Assembly (NCBI GenBank): GCA_023717565.1
Contig: JAMQPI010000510.1
Span: 1 to 52,281, forward strand
DNA length: 52,281 bases
Direction of reading: 5' to 3'
Origin: Pyrinomonadaceae bacterium
GTDB lineage: Bacteria > Acidobacteriota > Blastocatellia > Pyrinomonadales > Pyrinomonadaceae
The notes under the pieces are model-generated. The model worked only from the letters and a program-made list of their open reading frames with translations. It did no database searches and was not told the origin of the DNA. A program made the translations under genes and the position numbers. This document shows positions 4,481 through 15,875 of this stretch, one piece after another; the first letter of the stretch is position 1; every line of letters begins with the position of its first letter.

Positions 4481-5476
4481 CTACAGCTTATTTCTAAAAC
4501 CTTTCGGTGTTGTCCAGACAAGCTTGCGGAAAGTGGTCGTAAAATGACTTTGGCTCGCGAAGCCAGCCCGCAATGCGATGTCAGCGATCGGCAGGTCTGT
4601 ATCTGACAACAACTTCTTGGCCCGCCCAATTCGCTGCTCTGTCATATATGCGTTCGGACTGATTCCCATCGATTGTTTGAACGCGCGCGAGAAGTGAAAG
4701 TAGCTCATTTGGACTGCTTCAGCGACCGTGCTCAATGAGACCGTCTCCTCCTGATCGAGATTGTCGTTGATGAATTCGATCGCTTTGCGCAGTTTTCGCG
4801 GCGCCATTCCGCCACGACTTGTTTGCAAATCGTTCAAATAGCTGTATCTCCTGACAAGCTGCATCGCAAGCACCTTAGCCAGGGAATCAGCATACAGTCG
4901 TCCGATTACGTTCGAGTCTTTGAGTTCGTGGTGCAAAGACATGCCGATGTGATGTATATGCTCGTCTCCGATGCCAAACTGAGGCGCGATCGAAACCTGA
5001 CTGTAATCAACATCTATCGACTCGGCCGTCGTCCGCAGAAATTGTGGATCGAGATACAGATGCAGAGTGTGGCTTACGATATCTTCCTGCCGCCAAGCAA
5101 CAGACAAGCCGGCCGGGACAATTGTGATCGCTCCCGGTTCCAAACTCTGCTCAAAGTTCTCGTCACCGATCCGCGCCGTTACCTCGACCGAAGGTCCTAA
5201 TTGAACTACGATGCAGTGATTCTCAAGCGGAGGCATGGTCCATTCCGAGATCGTCTGTCGCATCTCAAGTGCGCGCAGATTTTGCCATCCAAGGGGTTGG
5301 CTTGAGGCCACCACAGCCTCGGGATAGATCAACGACAGATCGCTCACCACTGTGGGTGTGTTAGCCAATCTCTGCCGCCCGCCAAATTTGGCGGTCCGCT
5401 CTGTCACTGGATGCATCGCCGCCGATTGCTGGAAGTACCCGGATGGTTCTGACCGAACTGTTGCTGCGCTACTCAT
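4481..5476 (-). CDS. AraC family transcriptional regulator
   Basis: The protein has 331 residues from the chosen ATG (MSSAATVRSEP), which follows GAAGGGAAG at good spacing; the ATG 21 bp upstream has no such site. The N-terminal two thirds form a cupin-like sensing domain (HCIVVQLGPSVEV, GAITIVPAGLSVAW). The C-terminal 100 residues carry two helix-turn-helix units: LSTVAEAVQMSYFHFSRAFKQ and IADIALRAGFASQSHFTTTFR, ending with TPKGFR. This layout is typical of AraC-type regulators answering small molecules. It lies 42 bp downstream of the AAA+ gene and is probably the last gene of the STAS-AAA+ operon. The ligand is unknown. Confidence 0.92.
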   Translation of the reverse strand: MSSAATVRSEPSGYFQQSAAMHPVTERTAKFGGRQRLANTPTVVSDLSLIYPEAVVASSQPLGWQNLRALEMRQTISEWTMPPLENHCIVVQLGPSVEVTARIGDENFEQSLEPGAITIVPAGLSVAWRQEDIVSHTLHLYLDPQFLRTTAESIDVDYSQVSIAPQFGIGDEHIHHIGMSLHHELKDSNVIGRLYADSLAKVLAMQLVRRYSYLNDLQTSRGGMAPRKLRKAIEFINDNLDQEETVSLSTVAEAVQMSYFHFSRAFKQSMGISPNAYMTEQRIGRAKKLLSDTDLPIADIALRAGFASQSHFTTTFRKLVWTTPKGFRNKL

Positions 5477-5518
5477 CTCAATCTTCCCTTCTCTCATGCT
5501 TATTTACCAACAGATGCT

Positions 5519-6694
5519 TCAGACCGTCGCCCCAACTACTTGACTTGTTGCCGAATCACCAACGAAGCCGGTATATTTCGCCGCCAATGCAGCGAGAGCG
5601 GAGTCGCTCATCGGTCCGTCATCGTAACGTTTCGAGAACTCAACTTCCCTTCCACTATCGTTCAAATCTACATAGACGGCATCGCCAGACGTCACCTGCC
5701 CAGTAGCAACGAGGTTTGATAAAGGCAGCAACAGAAGCCGATCGATCGAACGCTTCAAATGCCGCGCGCCGTATTTGTAGTCGATGCCTTCACGTAACAA
5801 CATCTCTTTCACCGCATCTGAGCACTGAAAGACAAACTTTGAATTAGCCGAGCTCAGGATTCGATCTTGTAACGCCCGCAGCTCCAACTCGAGGATCTGG
5901 CGCAGGTGTTGTTCATTAAGGGAGTGAAAGACCACCACCTTGTCGATTCTGTTCATGAACTCAGGAGAAAAGTTACGGCTGGCCGCTTGAACGGCTGTGC
6001 GTCGGATCTTCTCGTCGATGTAGTTAGCGTCTTCAGGCAAGGCATTCGGTTTTTTCCCCGCAGCGAAGCCGATGTTCCCCCTCACCAGGTCCGATATCTC
6101 ACGCGCACCCAGATTGGAGGTCATTACGATCACTGTCCGCGAAAAATCAACGCGGCGGTTATCGCCTAACGTCAACGTCGCTTTATCCAGTACGCCAAGC
6201 AAGAGCTGCCACAATGCGTCCGAGGCCTTCTCGACCTCGTCAAAGAGAATTAACGAAAGCGGAACCTCGTCCGTGTGAAACCGATTCAGGTTCTCTTGAG
6301 TAAACAATGGCAAGGTCTCGCGGTGGCCCAGGTATCCCGGCGGTGAGCCTATTAACTTGGCGATCTCGTGCGAGTGCTGAAACTCCGCGCAATCCACCTT
6401 GACAATCGATTTGGGATCGCCGAAGAGAACTTCAGCCGCAGCCTCGACTACGCGCGTTTTGCCGGATCCAGTAGGACCAAGAAACAACAACGTGCCGAGC
6501 GGACGGTTCGGTTGATTGAGCCCGGCCAGGAAAAGCTGGTAGAGACTGCTCATATCGTGGATCGCGTTTTCCTGGCCAACTATGCGGGCCGAAAGCTTCT
6601 CATCAAACTCCTGGGCCCGTGAAGATTTGAGCTGGGGATCTAAAAAGAAGGGGGTTTTCAACAAGCCTTGCTCTCTACTCATTTCCGCAAGCAT
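5519..6694 (-). CDS. Single-ring Clp/HslU-type AAA+ ATPase
   Basis: The 391-residue protein resembles only the second AAA+ module of ClpB/ClpC. It has Walker A GPTGSGKT (73-80), a pore-loop-like PGYLGH (119-124), Walker B LILFDEVEKA, sensor 1 VMTSNLGA, arginine-finger region FSPEFMNRID and sensor 2 YGARHLKR. It lacks the N domain and first AAA+ ring of full Clp chaperones (about 800-900 residues), and I see no clear IGF/LGF-type ClpP-docking loop. The start MLAEMSREQ follows AAGGAG; the ORF-track start 51 bp upstream does not. It begins 20 bp after the STAS-like gene. The likely role is ATP-driven remodelling of a protein partner. Confidence 0.88.
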   Translation of the reverse strand: MLAEMSREQGLLKTPFFLDPQLKSSRAQEFDEKLSARIVGQENAIHDMSSLYQLFLAGLNQPNRPLGTLLFLGPTGSGKTRVVEAAAEVLFGDPKSIVKVDCAEFQHSHEIAKLIGSPPGYLGHRETLPLFTQENLNRFHTDEVPLSLILFDEVEKASDALWQLLLGVLDKATLTLGDNRRVDFSRTVIVMTSNLGAREISDLVRGNIGFAAGKKPNALPEDANYIDEKIRRTAVQAASRNFSPEFMNRIDKVVVFHSLNEQHLRQILELELRALQDRILSSANSKFVFQCSDAVKEMLLREGIDYKYGARHLKRSIDRLLLLPLSNLVATGQVTSGDAVYVDLNDSGREVEFSKRYDDGPMSDSALAALAAKYTGFVGDSATSQVVGATV

Positions 6695-6714
6695 GACGTC
6701 TCTCCTTTTGTTAA

Positions 6715-6978
6715 TTACTTTCCGTCCCTTTGTCGTTCCATCCACTCACAAATGTACGGCGCGCAATTTTGAAGCTCGATGCCGTTGGAGACGCATTGCT
6801 CCAAAAATCTGACCGTCTCTTGATCCACTAGCGTTAGATCTCGCAAATTCAAAATGATCCGCCGACTCCCACCTTCTGAGTCGATTAGCTTTTTCAATTC
6901 GGGTAAGTTCTCTCGATCCAATCGACCGCTAATCTTGAGAACAACTTCTCCGTTCGCTTCCCTCTGGATTCTTAACAT
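6715..6978 (-). CDS. STAS-domain-like (anti-sigma-antagonist-like) protein
   Basis: This is a small soluble 87-residue protein. Its beta-alpha pattern (MLRIQREANGEVVLKISGRL, IILNLRDLTLVDQETVRFL) fits the STAS fold of anti-anti-sigma factors. The loop that usually carries a phosphorylatable Asp-Ser reads VDQET, so the classical phosphorylated serine appears absent. The C-terminus, GIELQNCAPYICEWMERQ, is typical of a STAS-like group without known kinases. The start is the ATG after AAAGGAGACCCG; the ORF-track start 24 bp upstream is less good. It is the first gene of an operon with the Clp-type ATPase and an AraC regulator. Confidence 0.8.
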   Translation of the reverse strand: MLRIQREANGEVVLKISGRLDRENLPELKKLIDSEGGSRRIILNLRDLTLVDQETVRFLEQCVSNGIELQNCAPYICEWMERQRDGK

Positions 6979-7521
6979 CGGGTCTCCTTTGAAGCTTCGC
7001 ACAGGAGACAGTGCAATTACTTTGCCGTTTGTAAGTCATTGCGAATCAAGCAACGCATAGTTAAAGCATTGGCGAAGTGTCGGACAATTGGCGAAACTCC
7101 GGTCAATCGCAACTGCCGCTGCCGTTTCAACCACGCGAGTTTTCCTTGCTCTACTTTCTTACCGAGAGCCATCGAGCAACTGTAAGCCGTTCGAAGCATC
7201 ACTCCCCTGTTTCATTTCCTGATTTACGGCCACGAAATCTTCCGCGCCTTTCAATCTGTGATGTGAGTTTGCTCTTATGTCACTTAGTGCGAAACCCTAT
7301 ATGGGGCGACGCGCGAGGCCCTATATGCGGGGGGCGAAAAATCCCTAAATGGTGTTAGGGACTTCTAACCTCCCCTTGTGTTGGTCCCTCAGAACGAACT
7401 TCAGCTGGGTAGTCGTTATGCCCTGTCGCGGCAAAAATCTTGTTCACGCGTGATTGAGCCGTGGAGAGTTTTCGACTCGCGAGGCTCCGTTTGGGTATGA
7501 TCTGTCGCGCCGCTTAGCGAG
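6979..7521. other. Intergenic region upstream of STAS operon
   Basis: About 540 bp without a supportable gene; the listed short ORFs have no ribosome-binding site and atypical composition. It contains the promoter region of the STAS-AAA+-AraC operon and, further out, the three-motif array described separately. The DoxX-like gene ends at its right border. Confidence 0.5.
7295..7361. promoter_or_regulatory. Three CCCTAWATG motifs at 24-bp intervals
   Basis: CCCTATATGGGG, CCCTATATGCGG and CCCTAAATGGTG begin at 7295, 7319 and 7343, exactly 24 bp apart. The third copy is inside a perfect inverted repeat, TCCCTAA-ATGGTG-TTAGGGA, and the first is itself nearly palindromic. The array lies in a non-coding gap about 320 bp upstream of the STAS-like gene and just beyond the DoxX-like gene's 3' end. 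Repeated partly palindromic boxes at fixed spacing look like an operator array for a dimeric DNA-binding protein. The cognate regulator is not identified. Confidence 0.55.
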
Positions 7522-7905
7522 TTAGAGAAAGGGGCTGCTGTTGCGAGAACGGATAGTAGTGACACGGCGGCCGAAAAGTTTGGAGTCGATCGAGTACGCT
7601 CCGGGTCCGAGAAGGCCGAGCGCGATGGCATTGGTTGTAGCGATCACCCATACCACGATGCTGGCGCAGGGGTTGATGATGATATTGCCAATGGAGAACG
7701 CGGCGGCGATCACACAGAGGAGCGGTGTTAGAAGCCCCAGGAGCAGCGACGTCGAAATCAGCAAGATGACGACTAAGATTAGCCGGTGAAAAGGGCCGTC
7801 ATAGTTCACGGCAATGATGATGAGAAAGGCAACGACGGATGTTCGCAGTAACAACAACGCCACGCCGGGCCCCCCTTGAGGAAACATGGAGAACAATCGT
7901 TGCAT
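7522..7905 (-). CDS. DoxX-like small membrane protein
   Basis: The 127-residue protein has four hydrophobic segments: GVALLLLRTSVVAFLIIIAV, LILVVILLISTSLLLGLLTPLL, a CVIAAAFSIGNIII stretch and VVWVIATTNAIALGLLGPGAY. The pattern, with a leading arginine in helix 1 and a closing GPGAYSID, resembles DoxX/DoxD-like proteins. Their function is mostly unclear, with links to quinone or redox metabolism. The start ATG lacks a clear ribosome-binding site. It is divergent from the GH16-like lipoprotein gene and not obviously in an operon. Confidence 0.75.
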   Translation of the reverse strand: MQRLFSMFPQGGPGVALLLLRTSVVAFLIIIAVNYDGPFHRLILVVILLISTSLLLGLLTPLLCVIAAAFSIGNIIINPCASIVVWVIATTNAIALGLLGPGAYSIDSKLFGRRVTTIRSRNSSPFL

Positions 7906-12340: not shown

Positions 12341-12970
12341 TCAGATTTCAATTATGCCGCGTTTCAAAGCAATAGTTACTGCGTGAGTGCGATCGTTTGC
12401 ATTGAGCTTTGAAAGGATGTTCTTCATGTGGGCCTTGACCGTTTCCTCGGATATCTCGAGGCGCACGGCAATTAGCTTGTTGGCATTGCCTTCGGCCACT
12501 TGCTTCAAAACTTCGATTTCGCGGTTCGTTAAAACGTCATCCATGTGGTGCTCGGCCATTTCAACCGCGATTTCGGGAGGAATTCTTTTCCTGCCTCCGT
12601 GGACGCTGCGAATGGTTTCCACCAATTCCTTCCGCAGCATATTCTTAAGTAAGTATCCGAATGCTCCGGCTTCGAATGCGCGTGTCGCCTGGGTGTCACC
12701 ACTATAGGTCGTTAGAACAATTATTCGCGCATCAGGAAAATCTTTGCGTATGGTTTGTATGGCTTCGATGCCATTCATCTGCGGCATCTGTATATCCATC
12801 AGGGTTACATCTGGACGGTGCAGGCGAAACTTCTCGATCGCTTCGCGGCCGTTACTGGCTTCAGCAACTAGAACTAAGTCCTTTTCGGCTCCTAGTACGG
12901 CAGCAATTCCTTCACGCAGAATCGGATGATCATCGACTGTCAAGATTCGAATTGGACTGTTGCCGTTCAT
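12341..12970 (-). CDS. NarL/FixJ-type response regulator
   Basis: The 209-residue protein has a receiver domain: acidic pocket VDDHP, phospho-acceptor Asp in VTLMDIQMPQMNG, and LTTYSGD and LLKNM for the conserved Thr and Lys. A LuxR-type helix-turn-helix follows (LTNREIEVLKQVAEGNANKLIA, SEETVKAHMKNILSKL). Acting as a dimeric transcription factor after phosphorylation is the family norm. The gene converges tail-to-tail with the propeller kinase gene, whose HisKA_3 module is the kinase type that pairs with NarL regulators. Partnership is therefore likely, although the two are not in one operon. Target promoters are not known. Confidence 0.94.
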   Translation of the reverse strand: MNGNSPIRILTVDDHPILREGIAAVLGAEKDLVLVAEASNGREAIEKFRLHRPDVTLMDIQMPQMNGIEAIQTIRKDFPDARIIVLTTYSGDTQATRAFEAGAFGYLLKNMLRKELVETIRSVHGGRKRIPPEIAVEMAEHHMDDVLTNREIEVLKQVAEGNANKLIAVRLEISEETVKAHMKNILSKLNANDRTHAVTIALKRGIIEI

Positions 12971-13227
12971 TCAGGAGCAAATTATATGCTTGTTTTACTG
13001 CGAACTAAAGACTTCGTTGTTGAATCAACCACTTCGCACGATAGGAAACAAGACCACCTCCCAAACGAGTTGTTGACTAGATAGTTGAGGTATCCGAATT
13101 CAGCAAAACGGCAGTGTCGGAGTTTCTAATTCAGTTCGTGTGCGCCTGCAACCTGGCGACACTTTGGGAGGAAGTCGCGATCTACACTCGGTCAACCCAC
13201 AACCGTCACACTTGATGCGTTGTGAAG

Positions 13228-13412
13228 GAGGATTTGAGATCTTGAACCGGTTCCAAGCTTGGCAGCTGCGCCTGAAGGACCAAAGACTGGTCCGCGCGAC
13301 TCCGTGTGAGTCGATTCAATCGCTTGTTTTTCCTCAGCCGCAACCCGTTGCCGTCGACCGCGAAACGTTCGCTTTCGGAAACGATAAGCGAGGCTTTCCG
13401 TCAGTCGCTGTA
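13228..13412 (-). pseudogene. Decayed Fis-domain fragment of a sigma-54 activator
   Basis: The minus strand reads [14 protein letters not shown] and [14 protein letters not shown]. These match the C-terminal [14 protein letters not shown] and [14 protein letters not shown] of the sigma-54 activator gene about 1.4 kb to the right. The DNA is similar too, including GCAACCCGTTGCCG and CTTTCGGAAACGAT. The fragment lacks about 70 bp found in the intact gene, its recognition helix is scrambled (GTGSRSQILLHN in place of [11 protein letters not shown]), and there is no AAA+ domain. It is a partial duplication or the remains of a second activator gene. The flanking sequence (12971-13227) shows nothing else. 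Confidence 0.75.
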
Positions 13413-13439
13413 TCATTTCTCAGTAGAGATTGTTGTCCT

Positions 13440-14522
13440 TCAGCCCCGCTTAATAATGAAGACTGTTTTGTCGTCAATGTGGTCCTCTTCTCCAATCTGC
13501 CGCAAATGCTCGTCGTCTTTGGTGGCGTGTTCCATCAACGCATTGCAGATGTCTTTTGCTGACTTCGAATAGTTCTCCCGCATCACAGTTTCGAGGTGTT
13601 GGCGTTCTTCATCATCGCTGCCATCATAGACGCCGTCGGTATAGAGGAAAAGAATGTCGCCTGGGCTCATCAGCGTAATTTCGGCAACGTCGGACGAGTT
13701 AGCCGGCCTGGCCCGAAATTGCATTGAGAAATAACGCTTACGGTCCGGATGATCAGCAGGGATCTGTAGGCCCAACGGCAGGAATTGCACCATTCTATCT
13801 TTGTCCAACTCGACGAACTTACGATATTCAGCAGAGAATACCAGCGGCGGCGGGTGTCCAAAATTTACAAATCGGAAATAGCCGTAGGGATGGACTTCGC
13901 CATAAAGCATAATCGCAATCTCGCGCGCATTTTCTCTCTGACTTATCCCCAGTGCGTTACGAGCCGTGACCGAATGCGCTAAACGCAGGTTGAGGTTTTC
14001 AAACAACTCCGGCGTAGTCCTTCCGTGCTGGTCAAGCTCGGAGAGCATCAAAGCATGAAATGTATCGTGTACAGTCGAGGCAATTTTCGCTGCAATAATT
14101 CCGTGTCCCTGGGCGTCCACCAGGAGAACTCCTGCCGTACTAAAGAGCTCGTGGAGGGCTTCGGCTACCCTGACTTGTTCCGAGCTTCGTGCATCTCTGT
14201 ATTCGGCTTCCATTTCGGACTTATGATCCGGCCTGGACCTTAACCATTCCACATGATCGTCTACTGAATTACGCGGCGGTGCGCCTGGCGGGAGCGGATT
14301 AAGAAATTCCTTCGATGACTTTAACGCCTGCCGAATGCGTGCCTCGACGTCATAACGCTGCTGGAAGTTTATGTATTCAAATAGGTCCCCGCCGACCCTT
14401 CCGGCAGGAACAGCCTTCCCGTACATTTCGATGCCGGAGAGATGTGGAATCGCCCCTTCCACCGGCATGAGACGTTCACTCAAGTATTCATCGATACTCA
14501 GATCCGTTTGCCCTGTGGTCAT
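13440..14522 (-). CDS. PP2C/SpoIIE-type serine phosphatase
   Basis: The 360-residue protein is a PPM-family (RsbU/SpoIIE-like) phosphatase. The metal-binding motifs are in place: VGGDLFEYI near residue 46, VLLVDAQGHGIIAAKI, NFGHPPPLVF, DILFLYTDGVYDGSD and DDKTVFIIKRG at the C-terminus. About 60 extra residues (EFLNPLPPGAPPRN and following) sit between the first two motifs. No membrane or sensory domain is present, so it should be cytosolic. Such proteins dephosphorylate anti-sigma antagonists or similar partners; the STAS-like protein at 6.7 kb lacks the usual phosphoserine and is an unlikely substrate. The sigma-54 activator gene lies 51 bp upstream on the same strand. Confidence 0.92.
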   Translation of the reverse strand: MTTGQTDLSIDEYLSERLMPVEGAIPHLSGIEMYGKAVPAGRVGGDLFEYINFQQRYDVEARIRQALKSSKEFLNPLPPGAPPRNSVDDHVEWLRSRPDHKSEMEAEYRDARSSEQVRVAEALHELFSTAGVLLVDAQGHGIIAAKIASTVHDTFHALMLSELDQHGRTTPELFENLNLRLAHSVTARNALGISQRENAREIAIMLYGEVHPYGYFRFVNFGHPPPLVFSAEYRKFVELDKDRMVQFLPLGLQIPADHPDRKRYFSMQFRARPANSSDVAEITLMSPGDILFLYTDGVYDGSDDEERQHLETVMRENYSKSAKDICNALMEHATKDDEHLRQIGEEDHIDDKTVFIIKRG

Positions 14523-14573
14523 TTTCAGGATTTTGTACTCCGTTCAATCACAGCGGTCAGACTTAATTTCTTG

Positions 14574-15875
14574 TTAGGACGGATTGGAGAGTTTGAAACG
14601 ATTCTTGTTGATCTTGAGAGTTTTGATTTTCGACTCCAAGGTAGATCGTGCGATACCAAGCTTTGCAGCTGCGCCCGAAGGACCGAAAACTCGTCCGTGG
14701 GACTCCGTGAGAGCCGTCTCAATTGCTTGTTTCTCTTCAGCGGCAACCCGTTGCCGAAGCTCACGCTCGCTCGTTGGCGATGTGCGCAACGGTTGCCGCG
14801 AAAGCCAACTCTCATCGACCGAGAAACTTTCGCCTTCGGAAACGATGACAGAACGCTCAACAACGTTCTGCAGTTCGCGAATGTTACCGGGCCAGGCGTA
14901 TTGCTCAAACAAAGTGCGGGTTTCTTTGTTTATCTTCCTGATATTCTTTCCTTCTTTTCGGGCGTAGCGATCGATGAAGTATTGCACCAGCATCGGAACG
15001 TCTTCTCGACGCTCTCGCAACGGAGGCATCTCAATGGGAAACACATTCAGGCGGTAGAAAAGATCCTCCCGAAATGCGCCGGCAGCTATTGTCTCTGGCA
15101 AGTTACGGTTCGTCGCGCCTATCACTCTCACGTTTGCCTTGATCGACCTGTTCCCGCCGACACGCTCAAATTCGTGTTCCTGAAGCACACGTAGGAGGGC
15201 GACCTGAGTCTCTGGTGGAAGTTCGCCAACTTCATCAAGGAATATTGTGCCTCCTTCAGCCAATTCGAAACGGCCGAGCCGGCGTTGAGTCGCCCCGGTG
15301 AATGCACCCTTCTCGTGACCGAATAACTCCGACGGAATCAATGAGGGCGGAATGGCCGCACAATTCACGCTCACGAACGCGCGTTCGGAGCGCTTTGATG
15401 CCTTGTGAATGGCGCGCGCAATCAGCTCTTTGCCTGTGCCCGTCTCTCCGGTGATTAGTACGGTTGAGTCTGTCGGGGCCACTTTTGCCACTCGAACGAG
15501 GACCTGTTGCAAAGCAGGCGAGTTGCCGACGATCTCTTCAAACATCGAGGTCTTGATTATCTCTTCACGCAGCGCAATGTTCTCTTTTTGTAGTTCTTCT
15601 TCGGCACGTTTCCGATCCTCGATATCAGTCCCGGTGCCAATCCATCGTGTTATGTCTCCCCGTTCATCTCTGAGCGGAGCGAAGCGGACAAGAAAACAGC
15701 GAAACTGCCCGTCATGTCTCAGCAACCGAGCCCCGTGCTCAAACGGCTGACCCTCGAGAAATCCCTTCTTCCTTTCACTAACAAAATGTTCACGATCCTC
15801 CGGATGAACCAGATCAAGTCGAGACCCAGGCCATGAATGGGTGGCTTCGGGCTGACCCGCATCGGCTCGCCACAC
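14574..15875 (-). CDS. Sigma-54-dependent regulator with truncated PAS domain
   Basis: The frame gives 433 residues from a GTG. The first 100 are the second half of a PAS domain plus PAC ([31 protein letters not shown]). A short coiled coil follows, then a complete sigma-54 AAA+ domain: Walker A GETGTGKE, the GAFTGA loop contacting sigma-54, [13 protein letters not shown] and [16 protein letters not shown] Fis-type helix-turn-helix ends it ([21 protein letters not shown]). A TAA stop lies six codons before the GTG in the same frame, and the first strands of the PAS fold are missing, so the gene seems truncated at its 5' end. It likely still binds DNA and sigma-54, but sensing is doubtful. Confidence 0.88.

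Follow-up and report, generated by a model that had tools for sequence, protein, structure and literature searches.

A rare but conserved operon of a STAS-like protein, a single-ring Clp-type ATPase and an AraC-family regulator in Pyrinomonadaceae, preceded by a sigma-54-type promoter element

Introduction

Several described bacterial systems share parts with the locus analysed here. MlaB, a STAS protein, binds and stabilises the ABC ATPase MlaF, and the change Thr52Glu in MlaB weakens binding to the ATPase (PMC7367683). Among Clp-type ATPases, an xGF-type motif tells the partners of ClpP from ClpB (PMC10149685). In the sigma-54-dependent Psp response, an operon product, PspA, is known to inhibit the AAA+ activator PspF (PMC3128695).

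The three genes considered here (Table 1), referred to as the trio, lie in a stretch of 52,281 nucleotides from a Pyrinomonadaceae bacterium, the whole of which is called the window. Like MlaB, the STAS-like protein of the trio is short, consists of four strands and three helices, and is encoded near an ATPase that it possibly regulates; unlike the MlaB-MlaF case, the putative partner is an AAA+ Clp ring and not an ABC ATPase, and no other mla gene was seen among the neighbours examined. The STAS fold is also shared with the anti-sigma antagonists SpoIIAA and RsbV, which gave the best Foldseek and phmmer matches, but the trio protein has a shorter C-terminus and lacks the phosphoserine. The ATPase has in common with the unfoldases ClpC, ClpA and ClpX a D2-type AAA module and an [IML]GF loop between sensor 1 and the arginine finger, and differs from them in being a single D2-type ring without an N domain. 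ClpX is likewise single-ring and belongs to a different subfamily. With the second ring of ClpB/Hsp100 the ATPase shares about 35-41% identity over the D2 module, but ClpB has no xGF loop, and the trio protein has neither the first ring nor the M domain. Human CLPB (Skd3) is single-ring as well and carries an ankyrin part that is missing here. The Psp response offers a parallel: a stress operon stands beside a sigma-54 activator, and its first gene may encode a regulator of an AAA+ ring. The difference is that a STAS protein takes the place of PspA.

Table 1. Features of the trio and its surroundings in the window (coordinates of the whole stretch).
Feature	Coordinates	Strand	Remarks
STAS-like gene	6978-6715	(-)	87 aa; first gene of the trio
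Codon of STAS Glu54	6817-6819	(-)	SpoIIAA phosphoserine position
Single-ring Clp-type AAA+ ATPase gene	6694-5519	(-)	391 aa; AAA_2 + ClpB_D2-small
IGF tripeptide, ATPase residues 208-210	6073-6065	(-)	at the ClpP-docking loop position
AraC-family transcription regulator gene	5476-4481	(-)	331 aa; alternative start 5497
Sigma-54-type -24/-12 element CGGCAAAGTAATTGCA	7012-7027	(-)	starts 49 bp before the STAS start codon
Two tandem TG[TA]CCG-N4-TTCG copies, 19 bp apart	7073-7105	(-)	about 50-80 bp upstream of the -24/-12 element
Small membrane protein, DoxX-like by eye	7522-7905	(-)	directly upstream of the promoter; no Pfam match
LuxR-type response regulator	12970-12341	(-)	block 12341-15875
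SpoIIE-type phosphatase	14522-13440	(-)	block 12341-15875
Sigma-54 activator	15875-14574	(-)	block 12341-15875

Layout and conservation of the operon

The first-pass annotation described three genes on one strand, with gaps of 20 and 42 bp and ribosome-binding sites, and this layout stands: a plausible ribosome-binding site precedes each gene, STAS gene and ATPase gene are separated by 20 bp, and the second gap measures 42 bp with the AraC start common to the orthologues and 21 bp with the upstream ATG. The same three genes were found intact in two further Blastocatellia/Pyrinomonadaceae genomes, UBA11740 (locus L109; 91, 89 and 89% identity for STAS, ATPase and AraC) and Pyrinomonadaceae SH2 (L110, matching L047 in genome G012; 77, 73 and 77%). 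The contig of L109 appears to be the same as L113/L179 in genome G152, and the window's own genome, an assembly of 6.9 Mb in 735 contigs with 89% completeness, is G000. Comparison of the window with the two orthologous trios gave dN/dS values of 0.08-0.32 for the three genes, which points to purifying selection on the trio in all three genomes.

The exact trio is rare (3 of the 162 genomes of the class). A second arrangement of a STAS gene with a Clp-type ATPase gene occurs at L051, in the order ATPase, LuxR regulator, sigma-54 activator, STAS; the co-occurrence of the pair in other genomes, on which the module suggested in the first-pass annotation depended, was thus observed. The pairing of AraC and ATPase genes also recurs in differing arrangements. 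Our literature search found no paper on a STAS/Clp-type ATPase/AraC trio. We regard the trio as a true operon, conserved and fairly uncommon, built of known kinds of parts in a combination for which no report was found.

The PADLOC models gave no match to a complete anti-phage system, and the reading of the trio as a defence system was dismissed on account of the merely generic AAA-type similarities. Spread by plasmids was likewise set aside, as none of the plasmid relatives exceeded 40% identity; a Burkholderia match in that search proved to be a protein of two-ring size (2844-bp gene).

The single-ring ATPase and its family

Domain searches revealed one AAA_2 and one ClpB D2-small domain (Pfam) in the ATPase, which corresponds to an AAA module of the ClpB/ClpC D2 type without an N domain, in agreement with the earlier description of a protein holding only the second Clp AAA+ module. 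The best curated model was ClpB (3.6e-75), matched only at model positions 558-848 of 853, i.e., in the second ring, and the top Foldseek match was the NBD2 of ClpB. The score against the ClpB model TIGR03346 reached 254 bits for a cut-off of 1232, and of the two AAA rings, N domain and M domain that characterise ClpB the domain search gave only the one AAA_2 with its D2-small part. The functional residues were all present in the alignment (A3): Walker A (GPTGSGKT), Walker B (LFDE), the GYLG pore loop, the GAR of sensor 2 and the MNR of the arginine finger.

Members of this ATPase family (E <= 1e-90) were detected in 145 of the 162 class genomes and in 97 of the 101 good Blastocatellia genomes, usually as one copy; outside the class they were few in the phylum sample (7 genomes at E <= 1e-80). 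In the window's family, the core copy belongs to a conserved block with SmpB, an M17 aminopeptidase, a DnaJ-domain protein and a HEAT-repeat protein. This block (989-7358 of L053, syntenic in L041, L052 and L058-L062) also holds an inositol-phosphate synthase. An AraC gene by the synthase, about 2 kb from the core ATPase, encodes a different AraC protein and was taken as a coincidence, not as a meaningful pairing.

G000 carries three further paralogues and G012 several. The trio ATPases group with those of L040, L048 and L051 in an accessory clade (SH-aLRT 99, in a quick tree without bootstrap), so that the ATPases of both STAS-ATPase arrangements fall into one clade. Within it, the L040 ATPase sits behind a sigma-54 activator, and that of L051 lies near the LuxR-type regulator, sigma-54 activator and STAS gene mentioned above. 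A further pair of paralogues, L042 and the first copy in L047, lies in divergent orientation to a pair of response-regulator and AraC genes, whose AraC protein is 52% identical to that of the trio. The suspicion that the ATPase might be truncated ClpB debris was rejected in view of the intact family in 97 of 101 good genomes and the distinct clade. Most family members, the core copy included, have no adjacent STAS gene.

Contrary to the first-pass annotation, which saw no clear ClpP loop, the ATPase carries the tripeptide IGF at the corresponding position, and [IML]GF was found there in 37/37 family sequences while the residues downstream vary. The segment between sensor 1 (TSN) and the arginine finger (PEFMNR) spans 41-47 residues in the family. 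In the ClpB-like protein of the same or a related genome it spans 27 residues and contains no xGF, and ClpA-like and ClpC-like proteins of the same or related genomes have xGF at that position. Given the motif in all 37 sequences and its absence from the ClpB-like protein, the claim of a missing ClpP loop is unsupported. Exactly one copy of ClpP was present in each of the five genomes checked, and the IGF loop would be expected, from its position and conservation, to dock on ClpP. The AlphaFold model of the ATPase has only moderate confidence (71) and is poor at residues 197-257, which include the loop position, and the loop geometry was therefore left unused.

The STAS-like protein

The Pfam match to STAS lies below the threshold (E 2.6e-4). 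The AlphaFold model, built with 20 relatives, reached a pLDDT of 85 with the order E E H E H E H, and Foldseek matched it to TM1442, SpoIIAA, RsbV and MlaB (6xgy_B); the predicted STAS fold is thus supported by AlphaFold and Foldseek despite the sub-threshold Pfam score. The minimal fold, without the fifth strand and last helix, and the size of the protein agree with the description of MlaB (PMC7367683).

Glu54, within the sequence VDQET, aligns with the phosphoserine of SpoIIAA (phmmer alignment to 1th8/1tid) and is common to the window, L109 and L047 (alignment A2); in the STAS family at large, E, D, A or S prevail in this column. The first reading of VDQET as lacking the usual phosphoserine was therefore correct, and so, it appears, was the view that the locus is unlike classical partner switching, since with Glu54 in place of the serine the protein cannot use the classical serine switch. 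The same residue corresponds to the MlaB phosphosite Thr52, and because Thr52Glu weakens ATPase binding in MlaB, Glu54 could mean weak binding here.

STAS relatives were found in 27/162 class genomes. In many of the inspected cases the STAS gene directly follows that of a sigma-54 activator equipped with sensor domains such as GAF or PAS, and in several an HtrA-like protease gene comes after the STAS gene; sigma-54 activators are more frequent neighbours of the STAS relatives than the trio-type ATPase is. The proximity of STAS proteins to motor ATPases seems to be a repeated pattern in soil Acidobacteriota. Two of the activators are a 1188-aa protein with SnoaL, GAF and several PAS domains directly before the STAS gene (L117, 2591-6157), and a 1900-aa protein in which a protein kinase part is fused to AAA_16, GAF and sigma-54 activator domains, with the STAS gene after it (L127, 1-5703).

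The promoter region and sigma-54

The -24/-12 element of the window keeps 9 of the 12 positions of a general sigma-54 consensus, GG and GC among them. A similar element likewise starts 49 bp before the STAS gene in L109, and L047 has TGGCAGCGTAATTGCA at -51. Between the window and L109 a single base differs in the 60 bp ahead of the STAS start; further upstream the sequences diverge. Elements with at least 9/12 positions were found at -38 to -63 in 17 of the 21 STAS loci, and with at least 10/12 in 11 of them; a random stretch of the same size would contain them in 0.7% and 0.16% of cases, respectively, and as the 21 loci are related and include a few near-duplicates, binomial significance would be overstated. 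The element is retained even where the STAS proteins are only 25-40% identical. Elements at a similar distance precede the STAS genes of L046, L051, L112, L114, L116, L117, L119-L121, L123, L124, L127, L128 and L130. HtrA-like protease genes located 3' of several STAS genes also carry a -24/-12-type element, and a sigma-54 stress regulon of Blastocatellia is possible. Genome-wide, a loose sigma-54 pattern showed no enrichment (45 occurrences against 63 in the reversed control); hence the element is informative only at STAS starts.

The window and UBA11740 (L109) share the tandem repeats, at comparable distances from the STAS gene; the pair was not found in the other loci examined, apart from overlapping copies of the window and L109. 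By their position they are candidate activator-binding sites.

The gene rpoN was found in G012, G144 and G152; an apparent splitting by insertions in G152 was attributed to N stretches in the assembly and discarded. It was not found in the window's own assembly (89% complete), in which sigma-54 activators with intact GAFTGA are present. From these elements we infer that the trio operon would be under sigma-54 control.

Proposed function and alternative explanations

The explanation that we favour, at slightly under an even chance, is that of a sigma-54-induced proteostasis operon whose small STAS protein serves an AAA+ ring as a regulatory subunit. Stress would act through a sigma-54 enhancer-binding activator, on which sigma-54 RNA polymerase would transcribe the operon and yield an extra, inducible copy of the one-ring Clp unfoldase. 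The conserved IGF loop would dock the unfoldase on the single ClpP of the cell, and the docked enzyme could then unfold selected proteins and have them degraded; the ATPase may thus degrade or remodel a subset of proteins. The STAS protein, without a phosphorylatable serine, would be a permanent regulatory or specificity subunit, most likely of the trio ATPase, acting as MlaB does for MlaF and not as a phospho-switch, and the AraC protein encoded at the operon end would pass the signal on and adjust a downstream gene set. With MlaB-MlaF as precedent, a role of the STAS protein as adaptor of the ATPase is plausible.

At the level of sequence, operon conservation, family membership, fold, missing serine, xGF loop and promoter-like element are in place; the steps beyond the promoter element are read from the anatomy of the locus, and both the contact between STAS protein and ATPase and the role of AraC we infer. 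In favour of this explanation we count the trio in three genomes, the pairing at L051, the xGF in all 37 sequences, the one ClpP, the element in 17/21 loci, the core paralogue near SmpB, M17 and DnaJ genes, rpoN in three genomes, the intact GAFTGA and the MlaB-like size and fold. Against it we count the occurrence of the trio in only 3 of 162 genomes, the many STAS genes by activators without a trio-type ATPase, the many family ATPases without an adjacent STAS gene, and the failure to find rpoN in the window assembly.

The frequent position of STAS genes directly behind a sigma-54 activator and a -24/-12 element would also suit a feedback regulator that binds the AAA+ ring of the activator, as PspA does with PspF, with ATPase and AraC as mere target genes. 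No activator adjoins the STAS gene in the trio loci, the nearest in the window being 7.6 kb away, and the STAS-ATPase pairing recurs in two arrangements, and such feedback, for which PspA-PspF provides a known example, is possible but on the whole unlikely. Classical partner switching, in which an unlinked kinase and the nearby SpoIIE-type phosphatase would act on the STAS protein and thereby on an anti-sigma-like partner, draws on the SpoIIE relatives: 5 of the 162 genomes have such a gene, the three trio genomes among them, and in SH2 it comes immediately after the trio. Since Glu54 leaves no phosphorylatable residue at the site, no adjacent anti-sigma HPK-like kinase gene was seen among the labelled neighbours of the three trio loci, and SpoIIE also occurs without the trio (G006, G145), this explanation is very improbable.

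Concerning the ATPase, the ClpB matches of curated model and Foldseek, together with the ability of ClpB-type enzymes to act without ClpP, would fit a ClpP-independent remodeller or disaggregase whose xGF loop is vestigial or has a part in ring assembly. The preservation of the tripeptide in every family sequence amid varying loop residues, and its absence from the ClpB of the same or a related genome, speak against such an enzyme, to which we assign a minor though appreciable likelihood. Plain co-transcription of three stress genes from one promoter, with products that make no physical contact, would agree with a small accessory set present in few genomes and with many recombined neighbours; the recurrence of both STAS-ATPase and AraC-ATPase pairings in different arrangements is harder to reconcile with it, and we regard it as rather doubtful.

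If the proteostasis explanation is true, STAS proteins would be subunits of AAA+ machines, a role beyond anti-sigma switching and transporters, and an additional family of ClpP-type unfoldases, represented by a core copy in almost all genomes, would be present throughout a bacterial class. Through sigma-54 the trio would be connected to a stress regulon of STAS, HtrA and unfoldase. The most interesting idea, put forward as a proposal, is that Blastocatellia STAS proteins serve AAA+ rings generally: in Acidobacteriota, stand-alone STAS proteins that cannot be phosphorylated would as a general class be regulatory subunits of such rings, both those of sigma-54 activators and those of one-ring ClpP unfoldases, and the trio would be a ClpP protease induced through sigma-54 and controlled by its STAS protein. 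In this broad form the idea is a long shot.

The AraC regulator and neighbouring genes

The AraC protein matched HTH_18 of Pfam (2.4e-24), and strong matches to its subfamily were confined to the three trio genomes. Other copies of the subfamily accompany a stand-alone receiver protein and, in two loci, also histidine kinases. The latter paralogues, L174 and L175 (G000:C345 and G000:C347), possibly represent a phosphorelay-AraC module.

The gene of the small membrane protein upstream of the promoter is probably outside the trio transcript; relatives of it also lie near STAS genes in L046, L051 and L109. The SpoIIE-type phosphatase gene of the window is located 6.5 kb upstream of the STAS gene, and in SH2 (L047/L110) the relative directly 3' of the trio is 84% identical. 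The SpoIIE protein in G152 (L176) is 98% identical to that of the window, an identity above that of the trio proteins (89-91%).
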